Of a DNA stretch of 43,254 nt, positions 16,455 to 31,890 are shown piece after piece (positions within the stretch are counted from its first letter, which is position 1; the number at the start of each line of letters is the position of its first letter). Location: NCBI GenBank assembly GCA_035516965.1, contig DATIZR010000093.1, forward strand, positions 1 through 43,254. The letters run 5' to 3'. A model generated the notes under the pieces. The model ran no database searches. It had not been told where the DNA came from and saw nothing but the letters and a program-made list of their open reading frames with translations. This stretch comes from Nitrospirota bacterium (lineage in GTDB: Bacteria > Nitrospirota > UBA9217). A program made the position numbers and the translations under genes.

Positions 16455-16759
16455 GCTTCGGCCTCCAAAATTCACATACTATACCTCATATAGGAACTTA
16501 TTTCCTCTCTTTTTGAACGAGACAAAAACCGTCGGGAGAATAGAGCGGCCGCACTCTTGAGACCCCTTGACTTACGAGACCTATTATCCCCGTCTCAGAA
16601 TCTCCCCTTATCTCATGACGCCGCCCACAAGTGCCGGACCCCTTTCCCCGGCCTCGGCCGGAGGGCATTTATAGAAACTTCAGTAATGTCTTGACAATGT
16701 CTTGACTTGCCTGATAATCTAGCTACACTTTAAAGTATAAGGATTGCGTGGGGAGGAGG
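16455..16759. other. Divergent region between cupin and ceramide-type operon
   Basis: No gene is seen. The right end carries the strong promoter described at 16691-16718. Confidence 0.5.
16691..16718 (+). promoter_or_regulatory. Strong promoter of the ceramide-type operon
   Basis: A perfect TTGACA (16691-16696) and GATAAT (16713-16718; five of six) are separated by 16 bases. Transcription would begin near 16725, about 35 bases before the first start codon. A second TTGACT at 16702-16707 has no good -10. Confidence 0.6.
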
Positions 16760-17758
16760 ATGGGGCAGGCGGAGTCTCGGCGGGCACTGGTCACGGGGGG
16801 AACCGGCTTTGTGGGAAGTCATCTTGTCGAACGGCTTCTGCAGAACGGCTATGAGGTAACCTGCCTGGCGAGGAACCCTCTTCATCTGCGCTGGCTCCAG
16901 GGCATGGACGTGCGGCTCGCACAGGGCGACTGCACGCAGCCTGAATCGCTCCCCGCGGCCGTGCAAGGCGTCTCGGTCGTATTCCATTGCGCCGGACTTA
17001 CGAAAGCAAGACATGCCCGCGAATATTACCTCGTGAACCACCTCGGCACGAGGCATCTCCTGGAAGCATGCGCACGATATAATCCCGGTCTTGAGAAATT
17101 CATACTGGTCTCCAGCCAGGCGGCGGCAGGTCCAAGCCCGGACGGACGACCGGTCAAGGAGAGCGACGCCCCGCATCCCGTGTCTGATTACGGCAGGAGC
17201 AAGCTGCTCGCCGAAGACGAAGCGCGCGAATACAAGAACCGCCTCCCGGTCGTGATTCTCCGGCCATCGAGCGTCTATGGACCGAGAGATGCGGACGTTT
17301 ACGAACTGTTCCGCTGGGCCGGCCGCGGCCTGACGCTCGAGATGACCGGGGGCGACCGGTATATCAACCTGTGCTACGTCGAAGACCTGGCAGCGGCGCT
17401 GCTTGTTTCGGCCGAGCGCAGGACGGAGAGCGGCGCTGTTTATTTTGTCGCGGAGAAGAGGCCTTATTCGTGGTCGGAATTCAGGGCATTGCTGCTCTCC
17501 ACGGGCAACGTGAGGGCGCGCACGATCAAAATTCCCTACGCGGCGGCCTACATGATCGGCCTCGTCTCTGAGAGCGGAAGCCTGTTTACCAAAAGGCCTG
17601 CTCTTACGAGCAGGCAAAAGGTGCGGGAAGCCGCTCAGAGATACTGGCTTTGCGACACGCGGAAGATCGAGAATGACCTCCGCTTCCGGGCGGAGTATCC
17701 CCTGCAGAAAGGTCTGGAACTTACATGGCAATGGTACAGAAAAAACGACTGGCTGTAG
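16760..17758 (+). CDS. cerR: NAD(P)-dependent epimerase/reductase, likely ceramide reductase CerR
   Basis: A 332-residue extended short-chain dehydrogenase. The Rossmann motif GGTGFVG (13-19) and the catalytic Y144-x3-K148 (YGRSK) with a preceding SSQAA serine are intact. On sequence alone it could be a sugar epimerase. The context, directly upstream of a serine palmitoyltransferase-like gene and a GNAT-like acyltransferase gene, points to CerR, the reductase that converts the 3-keto group in bacterial ceramide synthesis (described in Caulobacter). The ATG at 16760 follows GGGAGGAGG; a GTG at 16748 preceded by AAGGA is an alternative. First gene of a three-gene operon; the gap to the next gene is 38 bases. 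Confidence 0.78.
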   Translation: MGQAESRRALVTGGTGFVGSHLVERLLQNGYEVTCLARNPLHLRWLQGMDVRLAQGDCTQPESLPAAVQGVSVVFHCAGLTKARHAREYYLVNHLGTRHLLEACARYNPGLEKFILVSSQAAAGPSPDGRPVKESDAPHPVSDYGRSKLLAEDEAREYKNRLPVVILRPSSVYGPRDADVYELFRWAGRGLTLEMTGGDRYINLCYVEDLAAALLVSAERRTESGAVYFVAEKRPYSWSEFRALLLSTGNVRARTIKIPYAAAYMIGLVSESGSLFTKRPALTSRQKVREAAQRYWLCDTRKIENDLRFRAEYPLQKGLELTWQWYRKNDWL

Positions 17759-17796
17759 CGGCGGATTTGATTCCGCCGAGAGTGGAGGACGCAGGC

Positions 17797-18981
17797 ATGC
17801 CGGACTTGTTCGAAAAATGCAGGAAGTTTACGGCCGCGAAAGAGGTCATGGCCGCCGGGCTGTATCCCTATTTCCACGTCGTGGAATCGGAGCAGAGCCC
17901 CGAGGTGGTCGTCGAGGGCAGGAAGATGGTCATGCTGGGGTCGAACAATTATCTCGGGCTTACCGGCCATCCGAAGGTGAAGGAAGCGGCCATCGAAGCC
18001 GTGAAGAAATACGGAAGCGGCTGCGCGGGTTCGCGCTTCCTGAACGGGACCCTCGACATCCATGTGAAACTCGAGGAAAAGCTCGCTACATTCTTTCGCA
18101 AGGACGCCGCGCTCACCTTTTCCACGGGATATCAGACCAACCTCGGGATCATATCGTCCCTCGCTGGCAAGGACGACGTGGTCGTGATCGACAAACTCGA
18201 CCACGCGAGCATCATCGATGCGTGCAGGCTGTCTTTCGCCGAGGTCAAGAAGTTCAAGCACAACGATATGAACAGCCTCGACTATGTCCTCAGGGAAAGC
18301 GGGAACCGCGGCAAACTCGTGGTCGTGGACGGCGTTTACAGCATGGAGGGGGACATCGCGCCGCTCCCCGACATCATCAAGGTCTGCAGAAAATACGGGG
18401 CGCGGCTCATGGTGGACGATGCCCACGGCATCGGCGTTCTGGGCAGGACCGGCAGAGGCACCGCCGAACACTTCGGCGTCGAGAAGGATGTGGACGTGAT
18501 CATGGGCACCTACAGCAAATCCATGGCGTCCATCGGCGGTTTCGTCGCGGCCGACGAAGACGTGATCCATTACATGAAGCACACGTCCCGGCCGCTCATT
18601 TTCTCCGCAAGCCCTCCGCCTGCCTCGGTGGCGGCGGTGATTGCCGCCCTCGATATCATCGACCAGGAGCCGGAACGCAGGGAACGCCTCTGGCACAACA
18701 CCAACAAAATGATGAAGGCGTTCAAGCAGATGGGCTTCGATACGGGCGCTACCGAGACGCCGATCATCCCCCTCGTCATAGGTGAGATGGAGCTGACGTT
18801 CATGATGTGGAAAACGCTGTACGATGACGGTGTGTTCGTGAACCCCGTGGTGCCGCCGGCTACCCAGGCCAGTCGCTGCCTGATCCGTACCAGTTACATG
18901 GCGACCCATACCGACGAGATGCTCGACCGCGTGCTGGGCATCCTTGAAAAGGCCTCGAAGAAGCTCGGCGTAATCGCCTGA
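17797..18981 (+). CDS. spt: Serine palmitoyltransferase-like alpha-oxoamine synthase
   Basis: A 394-residue PLP enzyme of the alpha-oxoamine synthase family (KBL, BioF, ALAS, SPT), which condense an amino acid with an acyl-CoA or acyl-ACP. Visible motifs: YPYFHVVESEQ and GSNNYLGL near the N-terminus, KYGSGCAGSRFLNGTLDIH, DHASI, KHNDM, DDAHGIG and the PLP lysine in TYSKSMASIGG (Lys241). The GSGCAGSRFLNGTLDIH and HNDM segments fit the Bacteroidota-type serine palmitoyltransferases better than BioF or KBL; no biotin or threonine genes are near. It would make 3-ketosphinganine from serine and an acyl donor. The ATG at 17797 has GGAGG 8 bases upstream. Its TGA overlaps the next ATG by one base, so translation is coupled. 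Confidence 0.85.
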   Translation: MPDLFEKCRKFTAAKEVMAAGLYPYFHVVESEQSPEVVVEGRKMVMLGSNNYLGLTGHPKVKEAAIEAVKKYGSGCAGSRFLNGTLDIHVKLEEKLATFFRKDAALTFSTGYQTNLGIISSLAGKDDVVVIDKLDHASIIDACRLSFAEVKKFKHNDMNSLDYVLRESGNRGKLVVVDGVYSMEGDIAPLPDIIKVCRKYGARLMVDDAHGIGVLGRTGRGTAEHFGVEKDVDVIMGTYSKSMASIGGFVAADEDVIHYMKHTSRPLIFSASPPPASVAAVIAALDIIDQEPERRERLWHNTNKMMKAFKQMGFDTGATETPIIPLVIGEMELTFMMWKTLYDDGVFVNPVVPPATQASRCLIRTSYMATHTDEMLDRVLGILEKASKKLGVIA

Positions 18982-20105
18982 TGGCCAGCGGGGTGGAGAT
19001 CGAACGTGTCGTTGATAAGGCAGGCGTGGACCGGTTCATTCGCTTCCCCTGGAAGGTCTACCAGGGAGATCCGAACTGGGTCCCGCCGCTCATCAGCGAC
19101 ATGAAGTTCATTCTCGGCGACAAGAACCCTTTTTTCCGCCACGCAGAAGCCGCCTATTTTCTCGCCCGCAAGAACGGGGACGTCGCAGGCAGGATCGCCG
19201 CGATCGTTGACCGCAACCACATCAATCTCCATAACGAGCAGGCGGGGTTCTTCGGATTCTTCGAATGTCTTCCGGACGTGGCCATTGCCCGGGACCTTCT
19301 GGATGCGGCCGCAGCATGGCTCAAAGAGCGCGATATCGAGATCATGCGCGGACCCATGAACCCCTCGACCAACGACGAGTGCGGGTTTCTTCTCGAGGGG
19401 TTCGACTCGCCCCCCATGATCATGATGACGTACACGCCGCCCTATTACCTCGACTACATGGAACGCTGCGGGCTGGTCAAGGCCAAGGACCTGTATGCAT
19501 ACCTCTCGGTCATAAAAGACGTGTCATCCGCAGGAAGGCTCGAACGACTATCGTCGGGCGTGAGAGCCAGGGTGCCGGGCCTCGTCGTGCGACCAGCCAA
19601 CATGAAGGAGTTTAAGAACGAGCTTGCCGCGGTTAAGGACATCTACAACTCCGCCTGGGGACACAACTGGGGTTTCGTACCCATGACGGACGAGGAAATA
19701 GATTCCATGGCGAAACGGTTGAAGCCGCTCATCGTGCCGGAGCTGCTCATCATGGCCGAGGTGGGGGGCAGTCCCGCGGGATTCTTCATGGCTGTGCCCG
19801 ACTACAACCAGGTCCTGCACAGGATCAACGGAAGGCTCGGGCCGCTCGAGCTCGTAAAATTTCTCTGGTATTCGAGAAAAATATCCGACATTCGCGTGCT
19901 CACCCTGGGCGTTAAAGAAGAGTTCCGGAAAAAAGGCATCGAGGGGTTGCTCTATCTCGAGTCGTTCAAGGCGGCGGTGCGCAGGGGCTACAAGCGCGCC
20001 GAGATGTCCTGGATCCTGGAAGACAACATGCCGATGCGCAAGGGGTGCGAGCTCATGGGCGGGAAAGTGTACAAGAAGTACCGGATCTACGAGAAGGGCA
20101 TTTGA
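18981..20105 (+). CDS. bcerS: GNAT-fold acyltransferase, likely bacterial ceramide synthase
   Basis: A 374-residue protein with FPWKVYQGDPNWVPPL near the N-terminus, GPMNPSTNDECGFLLEGFDSPP in the middle, and a C-terminal GNAT-like half ending WILEDNMPMRKGCELMGGKVYKKYRIYEKG. This pattern is that of the large GNAT-like proteins encoded beside serine palmitoyltransferase genes; the Caulobacter member (bCerS) N-acylates the sphingoid base. The family match is by motif and neighbourhood, not by alignment. The protein lacks transmembrane helices, so it would act at the membrane surface. It starts within the stop codon of spt (TGATG), the tightest possible coupling. The alternative is an unrelated N-acyltransferase. 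Confidence 0.75.
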   Translation: MASGVEIERVVDKAGVDRFIRFPWKVYQGDPNWVPPLISDMKFILGDKNPFFRHAEAAYFLARKNGDVAGRIAAIVDRNHINLHNEQAGFFGFFECLPDVAIARDLLDAAAAWLKERDIEIMRGPMNPSTNDECGFLLEGFDSPPMIMMTYTPPYYLDYMERCGLVKAKDLYAYLSVIKDVSSAGRLERLSSGVRARVPGLVVRPANMKEFKNELAAVKDIYNSAWGHNWGFVPMTDEEIDSMAKRLKPLIVPELLIMAEVGGSPAGFFMAVPDYNQVLHRINGRLGPLELVKFLWYSRKISDIRVLTLGVKEEFRKKGIEGLLYLESFKAAVRRGYKRAEMSWILEDNMPMRKGCELMGGKVYKKYRIYEKGI

Positions 20106-20291: not shown

Positions 20292-21179
20292 TTACCTGTT
20301 CGCTCGCGTCCGGCCCATGCGTGAGAGCGCCGCGAACAGGATCGGCGCCAGATACGCGGTCAGGGCCGTCAGGCCGACCCCCGCGATGACATCGATGACG
20401 TAGTGATACCGCAGATACACGGTCGAGATGATCAGTCCCGTCACCACCGGAACCAATCCCGCAAAAAGTCTTTTCTCCCCTGCTTTCCACGCGTAATAGA
20501 GGCTCATGAGCGAAACGGCCGTATGGCCGCTCGGGAAGGCATCGGTCTTGTTCTTTTCGAGACCGTTCAAGACGTCCTGGATCTTTTGGATGAACGGGGA
20601 AACCTGCAGGTCTCCGGTCTGGAGATGGCCGAGCGTAAAGCGTGGCCCGATTGCCGGAACGAGCAGGTAGCCGATGTAGGAAAGATAGAAGCAGAGCAGG
20701 ATGCCGAACAGGGCCTCTTCGAATTCCCCGAACCTGCCCCTGCCAATGAGCACGACGCCGAGCGAGAGAGGGATGAAATAATAGCTGATGTAAGCGAACT
20801 GGAAGAGGGCCGTCAGAGCAGGACTGATCAGCCGTTCCATCCACACCGTGGGGTGAACGCCGAAGAGCGCATGATCGGCGGCGATGAGCCAGGCATCGAA
20901 CATCGCCGGGTGAATGCCGGCAATGAGGACCCCCAGGCTGTTAAAGATCAGGAGAACCGTGATCACCGTGACGGCAACCGAAAGGATGAAGCCCTTCTTA
21001 GCCGGACCTCCCCTCGTGCGATAGAGGGCAATTGCGAGGATCGCGGCCGCCAGCCCCGCGTACGTCGCGAGCAGTCCGGCCCACGACGGGTTTCCATGCG
21101 CGGAAAAAACCGCAAGACCGGAGAGCAGCACAAGAAAAAAAAGCGTCAGCAGATCGGAGGGACTCAGGACGGGGCGCAT
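20292..21179 (-). CDS. PAP2/AUR1-like membrane phosphatase or head-group transferase
   Basis: A 295-residue integral membrane protein with about six to eight helices. Catalytic PAP2 motifs are visible: FPSGH (215-219) and R257-Y-H259-Y-V-I-D263, giving the His/His/Asp set. The segment YLLVPAIGPRF (171-181) and the RYHYVIDVIAG form resemble the PAP2_3/AUR1 branch, which includes inositol-phosphorylceramide synthases, more than soluble-substrate phosphatases. Lying tail-to-tail with the ceramide-type operon, it could add a phosphoryl head group to ceramide; it could equally be a lipid phosphatase. I chose ATG 21179: it begins the first helix and a TTGCAA-N17-TATATA promoter ends 6 bases before it. 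A longer frame adds 71 non-membrane residues. Confidence 0.78.
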   Translation of the reverse strand: MRPVLSPSDLLTLFFLVLLSGLAVFSAHGNPSWAGLLATYAGLAAAILAIALYRTRGGPAKKGFILSVAVTVITVLLIFNSLGVLIAGIHPAMFDAWLIAADHALFGVHPTVWMERLISPALTALFQFAYISYYFIPLSLGVVLIGRGRFGEFEEALFGILLCFYLSYIGYLLVPAIGPRFTLGHLQTGDLQVSPFIQKIQDVLNGLEKNKTDAFPSGHTAVSLMSLYYAWKAGEKRLFAGLVPVVTGLIISTVYLRYHYVIDVIAGVGLTALTAYLAPILFAALSRMGRTRANR

Positions 21180-21214: not shown

Positions 21215-21442
21215 CGCAACATCCCTTCCCCGGGGACAATAGGTAAACGTGAATCCTCGCGTCACTAACGCACCCGTATGATGCCTGGTTCGCGATTCCA
21301 AGCACTGGCACTCCTTCATATCTTGTTGCAGCTGCATAAGTCGATCCAGTCCGCATAACCCATTTCTCGAAAATCCTGCTATGCTTTTTCATAGGAACGC
21401 GATTCGATCCTTAACGGATGCAACTTTAGGGGTGGAAAAACG

Positions 21443-27442: not shown

Positions 27443-27614
27443 GACGCCGTTGTAGCCCCCCTCCTGCAACCTTCGTATCAATAATCGCAGTTTCCCGCCA
27501 ACGGGTGGCGTTGACGACTGCACAAGCCGGTGGTACCCTATAAATAAAGGATTTGAATTGTCCCATTTCGCCTGCTCGGGATTACACGGATAAGAGAAGA
27601 TGGGAGGATTTTTA

Positions 27615-28394
27615 ATGGCCGGAGGAACGATCTGGAAGGGATTCATTCATTTTGGGGATTCGGACGTGCCCGTGAAGCTGCACACCGCGGTCAGGGAAGA
27701 GCGGATCCAGTTTCACCTCCTGCACAGCCGGGATCAGGCACGGTTGCGCCAGCAGATGATCTGTGCCTATGAAAAACTGCCGGTGTCCGCGGAAGAGCAA
27801 GCCAAAGGGTTTGAAGTAGAGGACGGGAAATATATCATCGTCGATCCGGAGGAGCTCGAACGATCGGCTCCGGAAGGCAGCCGGATGATCGAGGTCCATG
27901 AATTCGTCAAAACCGAACAGATCGACCCGCTCTTCGTTGACCGTGTCTACTACCTGGAGCCGGATAGTACGAACATTCAGGGAAAAGGATACAGCGCGCT
28001 TGTCAGGGCCTTAAAAGAGATGGGGGTGGAAGGCATCTGCACGTGGACCATGAGAAAGCGGTCCTATCTCGGGGCCTTGCAGGCGAGCGGAAAAGGTCTT
28101 CGTCTGAATACGCTGCGGCATGCCGACGAAGTGGTACCGGTGGCATCGCTTGCCTTGCAGCAAGCTCCCCTGTCGGAGAAAGAACTGAAGATCGGGAGCG
28201 AACTGATCGACAAGTTGACCGCTCCTTTCGAGCCGCAGAAGTTCGAAAACGAGCATCAGAAGAAGCTGCAGGATATGATCGAGAAAAAAGCCCGCGGGGA
28301 AGACGTTACGCTCCTGACCCCCAGGAGACTGAAACCAACAGAATCAGACCAGCTGCTTCAGGCACTTGAAGCGAGTCTGAAAAAAGCCGCCTGA
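27615..28394 (+). CDS. ku: Ku DNA end-binding protein, first copy
   Basis: A 259-residue bacterial Ku, the ring protein that threads onto DNA double-strand ends and recruits LigD in non-homologous end joining. It has the N-terminal WKGFIHFGDSDVPVKLHTAV strand pattern, HLLHSRD, the YIIVDPEELE and IEVHEFVKTEQIDPLFVDRVYYLEPD core, and a C-terminal basic tail (KKARGEDVTLLTPRRLK) ending in a LLQALEASLKKAA helix that resembles Ku's LigD-recruiting end. The ATG at 27615 follows GGGAGGA; five residues upstream a second start at 27600 lacks a ribosome site. Second ku copy is 117 bases downstream. The two copies are clearly diverged. Confidence 0.92.
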   Translation: MAGGTIWKGFIHFGDSDVPVKLHTAVREERIQFHLLHSRDQARLRQQMICAYEKLPVSAEEQAKGFEVEDGKYIIVDPEELERSAPEGSRMIEVHEFVKTEQIDPLFVDRVYYLEPDSTNIQGKGYSALVRALKEMGVEGICTWTMRKRSYLGALQASGKGLRLNTLRHADEVVPVASLALQQAPLSEKELKIGSELIDKLTAPFEPQKFENEHQKKLQDMIEKKARGEDVTLLTPRRLKPTESDQLLQALEASLKKAA

Positions 28395-28407
28395 TAGGAA
28401 AGCTTCT

Positions 28408-28485
28408 AACCCCAGAGGAGACAGAGAATGAGGAATCCTTAAAAATAAATCGATCTCGAAATTCTCGATGGTCTCTGTGGTTACC
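28408..28485. repeat. Dispersed inverted repeat between the two ku genes
   Basis: AACCCCAGAGGAGAC (28408-28422) and GGTCTCTGTGGTT (28469-28481) are imperfect reverse complements of the CCACAGAGGACACAGAG repeat class, with an AT-rich loop. It may form a 3'-end or processing hairpin in the ku mRNA. Confidence 0.5.
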
Positions 28486-28511
28486 GTTTAGACGTCAAGC
28501 AGGAGAATGAC

Positions 28512-29297
28512 ATGGCAGTTCAGGGAATATGGAGCGGGACGATCAGTTTCAGCCTGGTGGCCATACCGGTACGCCTGGTTACGGCCATAAGGCCCGGCCA
28601 TATCTCCTTTCACCTGCTCCACAGCAAGGATTACTCTCCTCTGTCGCGAAGAATGTTCTGTCCGAAAGAGGGAGCAATGGTCCCCGCGGATGAGATCATC
28701 AGGGGATACGAGATCGTGCCCGACAAATACATACTGATGACGGACGAGGAGCTGGAATCCGTGTCCCCGGAACGGAGCCGCACGATCGAGATCCTCGAGT
28801 TCATCGATATGAAGGAAGTAGACCCGATCTATTATGATCACCCTTACTACCTCGTTCCTTCGAAAGGGGGCGAAAAAGCCTATCAGCTGCTGGTCGAGGT
28901 GATGCACCGGACAAACAAGGCCGGGCTCGCGAAGTTCGTGCTGGCTGAACGCGAGTATCTGGTGGCGGTGACGAGCAAAGAGGGAGCGCTGGCCCTGACC
29001 ACACTTCATTACAGCGACGAAATACTTCCCGATGAAGACATTTCACCGAAGAAAGGAAAGATCGAGGCCGAAGAGGAAAGCAGAATGCAAAAAAGCATTG
29101 AGCAGATGATCGAAGACTTTGATCCGGGGAAATATGCGGACGAGCGCCGCAAAAAGCTCGTGGCTCTCCTGGAAGCGAAGGCAAAAGAGAAGGCCCCGGT
29201 CGAGGCTCCTGCAGTGGCGGAAGAAGAGGGAGAGGGTCCGGCCGATCTGGTCGCTGCGCTGGAGGAGAGCATGAGGAAAGTGAAGGAGAACAGGTGA
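28512..29297 (+). CDS. ku: Ku DNA end-binding protein, second copy
   Basis: A 261-residue bacterial Ku with WSGTISFSLVAIPVRLVTAI, HLLHSKD, YILMTDEELESVSPERSRTIEILEFIDMKEVDPIYYDHPYYLVP and AEREYLVAV core motifs. The C-terminal part has an acidic/Ala linker (EAPAVAEEEGEGP) and ends DLVAALEESMRKVKENR, similar to the end of the first Ku. AGGAGA precedes the ATG. Its stop codon overlaps the GTG start of the LigD polymerase gene by four bases (GTGA), so the two are translationally coupled. In rhizobia paired Ku proteins form heterodimers; whether these do is untested. Confidence 0.92.
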   Translation: MAVQGIWSGTISFSLVAIPVRLVTAIRPGHISFHLLHSKDYSPLSRRMFCPKEGAMVPADEIIRGYEIVPDKYILMTDEELESVSPERSRTIEILEFIDMKEVDPIYYDHPYYLVPSKGGEKAYQLLVEVMHRTNKAGLAKFVLAEREYLVAVTSKEGALALTTLHYSDEILPDEDISPKKGKIEAEEESRMQKSIEQMIEDFDPGKYADERRKKLVALLEAKAKEKAPVEAPAVAEEEGEGPADLVAALEESMRKVKENR

Positions 29298-30199
29298 GCA
29301 GAACATTTGTCGAAATGGAAGGGAGGAGACTCCCTTTATCGAACCTTGAAAAGGACCTCTATCCCTCTTATGGTTTCACGAAGGCCCGCATCCTGGAATA
29401 CTATCGCGGGATTGCCCCGTTCATCCTGCCCCATTTGAAAGACCGGGCACTGACATTAAAACGCTATCCCGAGGGGGTGGAAAGGGATTTCTTTTTCGAG
29501 AAGCGTTGTCCTTCTCACCATCCGGCCTGGGTGAAAACGGCGGAGGTCCCCCAGGAAGGCGGAGAACCGATGACGGTCTGCATGGTCAACGACCTGGAAA
29601 CGCTGATCTGGGCCGAGAACCTTGCGTCTCTCGAACTCCATGTGCCCCTGGCCAGGACCGGATCGTCTCAGACGCCCGATTCCATGGTCTTCGACCTCGA
29701 TCCCGGCGAGCCGGCGAACATTCTCGATTGTGCCCGAGTGGCGCTCATCCTTCGGGACCTGCTCTCCCGCATGGGGCTTGTTGGCTATGCAAAAACCTCG
29801 GGGCAAAAGGGGCTCCATGTATTTGTCCCCTTGAACCGCAAGGAGACGACCTTTGAAGATACGAAGACATTTTCAAAAGCCGTTGCAGAAATCATGCAGA
29901 AACATTATCCGGACCTGGTGACCGCAAAAATGGCGAAGCAGGAGCGGAAAGCAAAGATATTCATCAACTGGTCCCAGAATGACGCTTCGAAAACGATGAT
30001 CTGTGTTTATTCCCTGCGCGCCCGGGAAAAACCGTATGTTTCGTTTCCGCTCGAATGGGAGGAACTTGAGAATCTGGCCGGGCTTGGCGACCCGGAAAGG
30101 CTGCAGGTCATGCATTCGGAAGCTGTTCGCAGGGCGGAAGAAAAGGGAGACCTTTTTCAAGAGGTGCTCGTGAAAGAACAGAAACTGCCTCATCTATAA
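29294..30199 (+). CDS. ligD: Stand-alone LigD polymerase domain (AEP primase-polymerase)
   Basis: A 301-residue archaeo-eukaryotic primase-type polymerase domain, which fills gaps during end joining and prefers ribonucleotides. Motifs: LSNLEKDLYPSYGFTK (N-terminus), RYPEGV, the metal-binding DLDP (Asp134, Asp136), SGQKGLHVFVPL with His175, and VYSLRAREKPYVSFPLEWEEL. The block that normally carries a third metal Asp (hhhDWSQN) reads IFINWSQND, with Asn at 225. Most LigD proteins fuse this domain to the ligase; here it is a separate gene. Start is GTG at 29294, overlapping the ku stop, with AAGGAG upstream. Confidence 0.9.
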   Translation: MSRTFVEMEGRRLPLSNLEKDLYPSYGFTKARILEYYRGIAPFILPHLKDRALTLKRYPEGVERDFFFEKRCPSHHPAWVKTAEVPQEGGEPMTVCMVNDLETLIWAENLASLELHVPLARTGSSQTPDSMVFDLDPGEPANILDCARVALILRDLLSRMGLVGYAKTSGQKGLHVFVPLNRKETTFEDTKTFSKAVAEIMQKHYPDLVTAKMAKQERKAKIFINWSQNDASKTMICVYSLRAREKPYVSFPLEWEELENLAGLGDPERLQVMHSEAVRRAEEKGDLFQEVLVKEQKLPHL

Positions 30200-30273
30200 A
30201 GGCCAGAACAAAAGCGGGATCCAAAAGTCGTCTCACGCGAAGGCGAGGAGAGCACAGAGGTAAGCGACGAGAC

Positions 30274-31890
30274 ATGGAAAGGGGATTAAAGGAATACGCA
30301 TCCAAACGGGAATTCGAGAAAACACCCGAACCGAAACCGGGCCTTCAACATGAGGGGGGCCGCCTCAAGTTCGTCATTCATAAGCACGCGGCACGGGCCC
30401 TTCATTATGATCTCAGGCTGGAGTTGGAAGGGGTGCTGAAAAGCTGGGCCGTGCCGAAAGGTCCATCGCTTGACCCTTCCTTGAAACGCCTGGCTGTCTT
30501 GGTTGAAGACCACCCCCTCGATTACAGGGATTTCGAGGGCGTTATCCCGGAGCACAATTACGGTGCAGGAAGCGTCATCATCTGGGACAAGGGCTATTAT
30601 CATCACCCCGCCACGAACGACAAGGACGAAAGCGAGAAGCTCCTTCTGGAGGGATTTAAAAATGGAGATATAAAGTTCATACTCGAAGGGGAAAAACTTC
30701 ACGGTGAATTCGCGCTGGTAAAGATGGGCAGGGACGGAAAGTCGTGGCTGCTCTTGAAGAAAAAAGATCGGGACTCTGCCAAGGAAGATATTCTTAAGGA
30801 GAACCGCTCCGTAGTGTCCCATAAGACGCTGGAGGAGATGCTCGAGACCAACACGGCTAAATCGTTCAAGCAAAAAAAATCAATCCAGATCCGTGTGCAC
30901 GAAGCACTGGAAAGCGAGGACCTGAAGGACGCGCCGATCAGGCCGATGCGAAAGGCTGTACGACCGATGCTCGCGACCGTGGCCGAGTCACCCTTTGATC
31001 ATCCGGACTGGATCTTTGAAGTGAAATGGGACGGATACCGCGCCTTAGCCGAAGTCCGGGACGACGGCGTTTCCCTCTATTCGCGAAATGGAATCTCGTT
31101 CAACAAGAAATTCTCTCCTATCGTGGCGGCGCTTCGAAAATTCGGATCTAACGCTGTGCTGGACGGCGAAATCGTCGTGGTGGACGATCAGGGCAGGCCT
31201 GATTTTCAGATGCTGCAACATTACCAGGACCTCGGAAGCGGTCATTTGCTCTACCACGTTTTCGACCTCCTCCACTTCCAGGGACATGATATGACCGGCC
31301 TGCCCCTGCTCAGGAGGAAAGAACTCTTGAAAAGAATTCTCCCCTCTTCCCCAAAAATACGGTTCAGCGATCACATCGGGAAAGAGGGCGTCTTGTTTTA
31401 CAACGTCGTCAGGGAAAAGGGCCTGGAAGGGATCATCGCCAAGCAGGCTCAAAGCCTGTACGACGCGGGCAGAAGAAGCCGGCAGTGGCTGAAAGTGAAA
31501 ACACGGCTCACCCAGGAGGGCGTGATCGCTGGTTTCACGGAACCGGGCGGTGGGAGAAAACATTTCGGCGCACTTGTGCTGGGCCTCTTCGATGGGGACG
31601 AATTGATGTACATCGGTCACGTCGGAGGCGGGTTCTCGGAGAGAGATCTAAAGGATATCCACGAACAATTGGCGCCCCTGATCCAAAAAGAATGTCCTTT
31701 TAAGGTGACTCCGGAGACCAATGCCCGCGTTACCTGGGTCAGGCCGGAGCTGGTCTGTGAGGTTGGTTTGTCCGGCTGGACTGAAGACGATGTCATGAGG
31801 CAGCCCGTTTTCCTGCGGCTGCGCGAGGACAAAGCCGCCCGCGAAGTAGTGAGCGAGAAACCACTGATAGGCGACGGGGGAGGACCTTAA
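30274..31890 (+). CDS. ligD: LigD phosphoesterase-ATP-dependent DNA ligase
   Basis: A 538-residue protein with two LigD modules. The 3'-phosphoesterase domain (about 30-190) shows IHKHAARALHYDLRLELEG with His36/His38/His44/Asp46/Arg48, His80 in VEDHPLDY and the IPEHNYGAG loop. The ligase domain shows the nucleotidyl lysine Lys251 in EVKWDGYR, motif III-like VFDLLHF, EGIIAKQ and QWLKVK, then an OB fold to the C-terminus. It trims 3' ends and seals the break. The gene follows the polymerase-domain gene by 74 bases that contain a repeat fragment. Together with both ku genes it gives a complete two-protein LigD system. Confidence 0.92.
   Translation: MERGLKEYASKREFEKTPEPKPGLQHEGGRLKFVIHKHAARALHYDLRLELEGVLKSWAVPKGPSLDPSLKRLAVLVEDHPLDYRDFEGVIPEHNYGAGSVIIWDKGYYHHPATNDKDESEKLLLEGFKNGDIKFILEGEKLHGEFALVKMGRDGKSWLLLKKKDRDSAKEDILKENRSVVSHKTLEEMLETNTAKSFKQKKSIQIRVHEALESEDLKDAPIRPMRKAVRPMLATVAESPFDHPDWIFEVKWDGYRALAEVRDDGVSLYSRNGISFNKKFSPIVAALRKFGSNAVLDGEIVVVDDQGRPDFQMLQHYQDLGSGHLLYHVFDLLHFQGHDMTGLPLLRRKELLKRILPSSPKIRFSDHIGKEGVLFYNVVREKGLEGIIAKQAQSLYDAGRRSRQWLKVKTRLTQEGVIAGFTEPGGGRKHFGALVLGLFDGDELMYIGHVGGGFSERDLKDIHEQLAPLIQKECPFKVTPETNARVTWVRPELVCEVGLSGWTEDDVMRQPVFLRLREDKAAREVVSEKPLIGDGGGP

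Follow-up and report, generated by a model that had tools for sequence, protein, structure and literature searches.

Bacterial ceramide backbones are predicted in dozens of phyla, with 38 in the Black Sea alone (PMC11334938). In Caulobacter, Spt and bCerS are described as cytoplasmic and CerR as periplasmic (PMC11087976), and the ceramide kinase CpgB, which acts downstream of Spt-bCerS-CerR, leads to ceramide phosphoglycerate (PMC10331486). The AUR1-like protein BT_1522 of Bacteroides thetaiotaomicron was reported to be required for inositol phosphorylceramide (IPC) and phosphoinositol dihydroceramide (PMC9246714; PMC8791184). Human SMSr is described as a ceramide phosphoethanolamine (CPE) synthase, a PAP2 phosphotransferase that acts from phosphatidylethanolamine (PE) to ceramide (PMC7988496). 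A BLAST search with the fly CPE synthase found nothing in B. thetaiotaomicron (PMC8791184). The only bacterial head-group enzymes described in the literature examined are those of Bacteroides (IPC) and Caulobacter (ceramide phosphoglycerate). Moreover, the mostly open-access literature on Thermodesulfovibrio lipids, Nitrospirota sphingolipids and bacterial CPE synthase yielded, among the results listed, no paper on such an enzyme or on phosphosphingolipids of these organisms, and no description of the PAP2 subfamily treated here was found in it.

In this study we analyzed a stretch of 43,254 nucleotides (the window) from a metagenome-assembled genome (MAG) of a Nitrospirota bacterium (G000; 3.8 Mb in 120 contigs, 97.7% complete). 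It encodes an AUR1-like PAP2_3 integral membrane protein. This candidate ceramide phospho-head-group transferase probably carries out the last step of sphingolipid synthesis in these uncultured bacteria and, in the window's genome, would add a non-inositol head group. The gene lies on the minus strand (20292..21179) and is arranged tail-to-tail with a predicted ceramide operon, as an earlier note on this DNA had described; the gap to the bCerS-like gene measures 186 bp. The operon consists of three overlapping genes on the plus strand: an SDR (16748..17758) whose fold family and position make it a candidate ceramide reductase (CerR), a serine palmitoyltransferase-like enzyme (SPT; 17725..18981) and a GNAT-type acyltransferase, which is a candidate bacterial ceramide synthase (bCerS) by position and an Acetyltransf_1 match (18981..20105). 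For the SPT-like protein the NCBIfam SPT model was the best match with 577 bits (cut-off 640), compared to 393-436 bits for KBL/BioF-type models. Since this score is under the NCBI cut-off and bCerS and CerR were assigned by family or position, the ceramide operon is itself a prediction. Elsewhere in the window (27600-31890), two tandem Ku-like genes precede a pair of separate LigD-like genes; from reading the sequences, we take this cluster to serve bacterial non-homologous end-joining.

Translation from the ATG at 21179 gives a protein of 295 amino acids. A second in-frame ATG lies upstream at 21392; conservation among the homologues begins only at 21179. Membership in PAP2_3 (PF14378) was clear with 82.4 bits (cut-off 27), and this family was matched at E <= 0.01 by 69/69 members of the homologue set. 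All three motifs named in the earlier note were located, namely VPAIGPR (residues 174-180; 20640..20660), FPSGH (residues 215-219; 20523..20537) and RYHYxxD, here RYHYVID (residues 257-263; 20391..20411), each on the minus strand. By alignment, His259 together with Asp263 is the predicted nucleophile and His219 in FPSGH is predicted to be catalytic, as in the PAP2 family. H219, R180, E208, D213, G178-P179 and P216-S217 are invariant in 95/95 homologues, as is thereby the G178-P179-R180 part of the VPAIGPR segment, and H259 is present in 94/95, the remaining row being a gap; apart from gaps, the whole triad with D263 is conserved in the 95 homologues. Because the key residues are kept across 95 homologues, the motifs are not a matter of chance. 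In a positive-inside count, lysine and arginine make up 14 of the 51 residues of the N-terminus, the C-terminus and loops 2, 4 and 6 (the odd segments), compared to 6 of 97 in loops 1, 3, 5 and 7; therefore, the active-site loops are predicted to be periplasmic.

The AF2 model built from 69 homologues (mean pLDDT 91.4, pTM 0.90) had two Foldseek matches in the PDB at E <= 0.001, and both were AUR1 (9vj4, 9ivc). Structural alignment with AUR1 covered 259 residues of 280, spanning model residues 3-283 (Z 18.6, rmsd 4.2 Å, 14% identity). Among the PAP2 folds compared, beyond which further ones are possible, LpxE came next (Z 14.6 over 158 residues), followed by PgpB (8bm3; Z 12.1 over 173 residues) and SMSr (8ijq; Z 11.8 over 197 residues, rmsd 4.8 Å). 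The His-His-Asp triad (H219, H259, D263) has the AUR1 arrangement, and the whole-chain fold includes the N-terminal helices, which match AUR1 and not LpxE. When the family profile was compared with PDB sequences, AUR1 ranked first (E 2.5e-4) with a small lead over YodM of B. subtilis (7.8e-4), and phmmer of the single window protein against the PDB gave no match. The placement in the AUR1 branch suggested in the earlier note is thus supported by the fold comparison, in which AUR1 leads by far in coverage, and by its first rank when the profile is compared with PDB sequences.

Canonical PAP2 phosphatases carry the motifs C1 (KxxxxxxRP) and C3 (SRxxxxxHxxxD). Both were absent from the family (0/95 homologues each), and the position of the C3 arginine is occupied by Thr253 in the window protein and by threonine in 88/95 homologues and in AUR1. 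With AUR1 as best fold and sequence match, this does not fit a canonical PgpB/UppP/LPP phosphatase, and the undecaprenyl-pyrophosphate-phosphatase type, which the earlier note had considered as a possible outcome, did not hold. The missing Lys/Arg motif and Arg-bearing motif also argue against a role as lipid phosphatase within the sphingolipid pathway, for example on ceramide 1-phosphate or a phosphorylated carrier, in place of head-group transfer. Such an enzyme would share its fold and triad with the family, as these are common to phosphatases; LpxE is the second-best fold, and the LpxE phosphatase model was second in NCBIfam (58/69 members at E <= 0.01) after phosphoinositol dihydroceramide synthase (67/69). 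Besides, the transferase SMSr is itself described as able to hydrolyse glycerophospholipids (PMC7988496). Nevertheless, the N-terminal helices do not fit LpxE, and G000 has no clear ceramide-kinase-type gene, with a single borderline DAGK_cat match of 23.4-23.7 bits (cut-off 23.6). We regard such a pathway phosphatase as unlikely.

The question of the head group was addressed by gene content. Neither an inositol-phosphate synthase (MIPS) nor a PI-synthase-type CDP-alcohol transferase was found in G000, a 97.7% complete MAG. Its three CDP-alcohol transferases are pgsA (over the cut-off), a pgsA-like gene (at the cut-off) and pssA, and because pssA adjoins psd and two pgsA-type genes are present, the organism is predicted to make PE and phosphatidylglycerol (PG). 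By gene content, phosphatidylinositol (PI), the donor of AUR1-type enzymes, is not available in G000, import being possible. As read from MAGs, MIPS was also absent in 9/9 PAP2-positive relatives of the window's family and in 7/7 genomes which we label Desulfuromonadales-type (L049-L055). In contrast to 6/61 genomes of a phylum sample, 43/50 genomes of a mostly Thermodesulfovibrionia set carry MIPS. We inspected 24 MIPS stretches, which are part of 55 MIPS-positive, PAP2-positive genomes: 15 have a PI-phosphate-synthase-type gene next to MIPS, 3 have a fused nucleotidyl/CDP-alcohol transferase there, and the other 6 have neither. One PI-phosphate-synthase-type protein that was scanned stayed below the cut-offs for both PIP synthase (140 bits, cut-off 170) and archaetidylinositol phosphate synthase (164 bits, cut-off 180). 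The linked operon, MIPS and a PIP-synthase-type gene occur together in one genome (L087; G127). An exception is L056 (G117), which has MIPS though it belongs to the PAP2 clade of the window, and the NC10 genomes are split (2/4).

Two side observations concern inositol. In L144 (6252-7580; G042), L162 and L153 the MIPS gene lies beside the fused nucleotidyltransferase/CDP-alcohol transferase, which resembles the di-myo-inositol-phosphate enzymes of thermophiles (292 bits in L144, cut-off 580) and represents an alternative inositol route. G003, a member of the window's family, has MIPS without PAP2, bCerS or a true SPT; its inositol is made for something else.

The earlier note had proposed a head-group enzyme for ceramide, with motifs like those of the branch that includes IPC synthases. 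The candidate stands, backed by linkage, co-occurrence and fold; an IPC product is unlikely as PI genes are missing. The protein might be an IPC synthase in the window's organism too if inositol or PI were taken up from outside, and for this speak the closeness of the whole family to AUR1, the match of nearly all members to the Bacteroides synthase model and the many relatives in which MIPS and PI-phosphate synthase are encoded side by side. However, PG and PS synthesis accounts for all three CDP-alcohol transferases of G000, and MIPS is consistently absent from the family relatives and the Desulfuromonadales-type genomes. As the genome offers only PE and PG genes, the protein is not simply an IPC synthase there, and we consider this explanation quite improbable.

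In the PAP2 tree the window protein is placed among seven Desulfuromonadales-type rows (100/100), within a clade of 18 rows that includes the window's own family (100/98). The presence of MIPS on this arbitrarily rooted tree requires about 10 changes compared to 26.6 in shuffles. A change of donor is therefore deduced from gene content and is not a mapped event. Among the columns that differ between MIPS-positive and MIPS-negative rows, residue 124 is D/E in 54/54 positive rows, and at residue 212 the window's clade has T where most other rows have R. Such columns were dropped as donor-specificity markers and no specificity is claimed from residues, since the MIPS labels are strongly clustered on the tree and the MIPS-positive L056 has the window-type T212. 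The locus itself is a mosaic by ancestry. Its two outer genes, for CerR and PAP2, are nearest to Desulfuromonadales (81% and 79%) and share 58-66% and 52-57%, respectively, with the window's own Nitrospirota family; bCerS is nearest to this family (81% vs 75% to Desulfuromonadales). Judged by sequence identity, the PAP2 gene may have been acquired laterally, or the contig may be a misbinned mixture.

To what extent the PAP2 gene accompanies sphingolipid genes was assessed by searching 60 relatives with all three proteins; matches over 470 bits counted as true SPT and those over 230 bits as bCerS. PAP2 orthologues were present in 21 and SPT or bCerS in 23; 20 genomes had both, one had PAP2 alone, three had sphingolipid genes alone and 36 had neither. 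In the sole PAP2-only genome (G004) the contig breaks off 879 bases from the gene, on the operon side, and the three genomes with sphingolipid genes alone (G001, G011, G043) are each under 90% complete. The association was significant when counted by genomes (Fisher p 8e-12) and, since relatives are not independent, also when counted by 16 families (p 0.0014). In the window's family PAP2 is tail-to-tail with the operon in 7/7 genomes whose contig extends far enough (G000, G002, G007, G009, G010, G012, G013); in G004, G006 and G008 (loci L062, L058 and L060) the contig ends within 900 bases of the PAP2 locus. Similarly, PAP2 is tail-to-tail with spt in 5/6 genomes of family f4, bcerS being elsewhere or not found. 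Six other PAP2-positive genomes from five families carry the sphingolipid genes unlinked to PAP2, so the association persists even where the genes have been rearranged.

A scan of named genomes yielded 80 PAP2 loci, of which 20 are tail-to-tail with bcerS or spt in at least three phyla. The linked loci are labelled Nitrospirota, Desulfuromonadales/Geobacter, Methylomirabilota/NC10 and other Deltaproteobacteria, with single MAGs labelled Thioalkalivibrio and Proteobacteria, and the arrangement is kept across phyla despite differing flanking genes. At locus L054 the sequence ends 2 bases after PAP2 and the other side holds only a bCerS paralogue. We further examined 50 PAP2-positive genomes, 48 of them without any sphingolipid gene in the PAP2 flanks (up to 10 kb). 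A bCerS was encoded in 47/50, some matches being fragments; the misses are the genomes of L083, L099 and L127, and the unlinked loci L081, L095, L103, L112, L115, L118, L120 and L126 lay outside this test. Hence the outcome that would have counted against the earlier note, orthologues mostly without sphingolipid genes, did not occur (20/21 PAP2-positive Nitrospirota relatives carry them), and a position next to spt or bcerS was seen in part of the related genomes. In the order of L049 (Desulfuromonadales), 5/77 genomes have some bCerS-type gene; these include both of the genomes with PAP2 (2/77), and the other three carry only a 40%-identity paralogue. Thus, PAP2 accompanies bCerS-type genes in this order, and the paralogue does not imply PAP2. 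Co-occurrence and linkage with spt/bcerS together mark the protein as a probable sphingolipid-pathway enzyme. A housekeeping PgpB/UppP-type phosphatase located beside the operon by chance, to which low-scoring matches to the profiles of UppP (20.4 bits) and PgpB might point, is highly improbable given that PAP2 is missing from 36/37 relatives without SPT and bCerS, that the linkage outlasts changes in the flanking genes, and that G000 has another PAP2 protein with both C1 and C3 that is nearest to undecaprenyl-diphosphatase models.

The neighbourhoods of the 80 loci were also inspected for a clue to the head group; no metabolic partner emerged, and this approach was dropped. A small reading frame, presumably NYN/YacP-like by its sequence, occurs in 42/80 loci; in 41 of them it lies no more than 6 kb from PAP2, mostly directly upstream of unlinked PAP2 genes. 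The remaining neighbours are of housekeeping type. All seven loci L049-L055 have a further bCerS-like gene (39% to the window's) in divergent orientation to PAP2, and after it a gene for a 280-aa protein that matched no Pfam family. In L049 (2-9777) the next gene encodes a KS-AT-ACP-KR protein of 2587 aa (cut) that also contains a nitronate monooxygenase-like domain and perhaps supplies a sphingolipid chain by a polyketide-type route. G002 encodes a second PAP2 paralogue (34% to the window protein) with FPSLH replacing FPSGH and a second bCerS-like gene (40%), located on separate contigs (L025 = G002:C1; L047 = G002:C101).

Taking co-occurrence, linkage, the lack of phosphatase motifs and the nearly full-length AUR1 match together, the protein is best explained as a ceramide phosphotransferase, and we consider it fairly likely that the predicted enzyme uses a non-inositol donor in the window's genome. 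SPT and bCerS would build 3-oxo-ceramide in the cytoplasm, and by the Caulobacter precedent CerR would reduce it at the periplasmic face. As CerR of Caulobacter is described as periplasmic (PMC11087976), the ceramide is presumably finished on this side of the membrane. With ceramide as the putative acceptor, His259, activated by Asp263, would attack the head-group phosphate of a glycerophospholipid, diacylglycerol would depart, protonated by His219, and the 1-hydroxyl of ceramide would then accept the phospho-head group. For the Thermodesulfovibrionia branch, PI would be the most likely donor and IPC the product. In the window's branch, where inositol genes are missing, PE would most likely be the donor, giving CPE, or, as second choice, PG. 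One subfamily would thereby handle different head groups: inositol phosphate in Thermodesulfovibrionia and, in the window's branch, either phosphoethanolamine or phosphoglycerol. More tentatively, we propose an unnamed subfamily of bacterial ceramide phosphotransferases whose donor has changed, comprising IPC synthases in genomes with inositol genes and CPE or phosphoglycerol synthases in those without (the window's family and Desulfuromonadales).

The gene is a concrete and widespread candidate for the step that decides the identity of the lipid, and the proposal predicts inositol head groups in one branch of the PAP2 subfamily and not in the other. If correct, it would provide a candidate bacterial CPE synthase and naturally occurring sister enzymes in which to look for the determinants of donor choice in the AUR1 family, which is an antifungal target.

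Among the known systems, CpgB of Caulobacter uses kinase chemistry and belongs to a protein family unrelated to PAP2; G000 has no clear DAGK_cat kinase. Aquifex LpxE and E. coli PgpB share the PAP2 core and the triad with the window protein; their match is limited to this core, and the window protein lacks their phosphatase motifs. SMSr has a lower fold match than AUR1, and PAP2_C (PF14360, SMS/SMSr) remained just under the cut-off with 26.6 bits (cut-off 27). BT_1522 is likewise a bacterial AUR1-like protein and acts after ceramide synthesis (PMC9246714; PMC8791184). Residues 123-274 of the window protein align to its model (NF052609, phosphoinositol dihydroceramide synthase) with 25.8 bits, far from the equivalog cut-off of 480. 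Moreover, BT_1522 is located in an inositol-lipid operon, whereas the window gene lies beside a ceramide operon without inositol genes. AUR1, the catalytic subunit of fungal IPC synthase, has FPSLH and THHY where the window protein has FPSGH and RYHY, and unlike in the AUR1 setting PI-making genes are missing from the window's genome. Nevertheless, despite low structural identity the two proteins have in common the PAP2 triad, a nearly full-length fold and a threonine in place of the C3 arginine.
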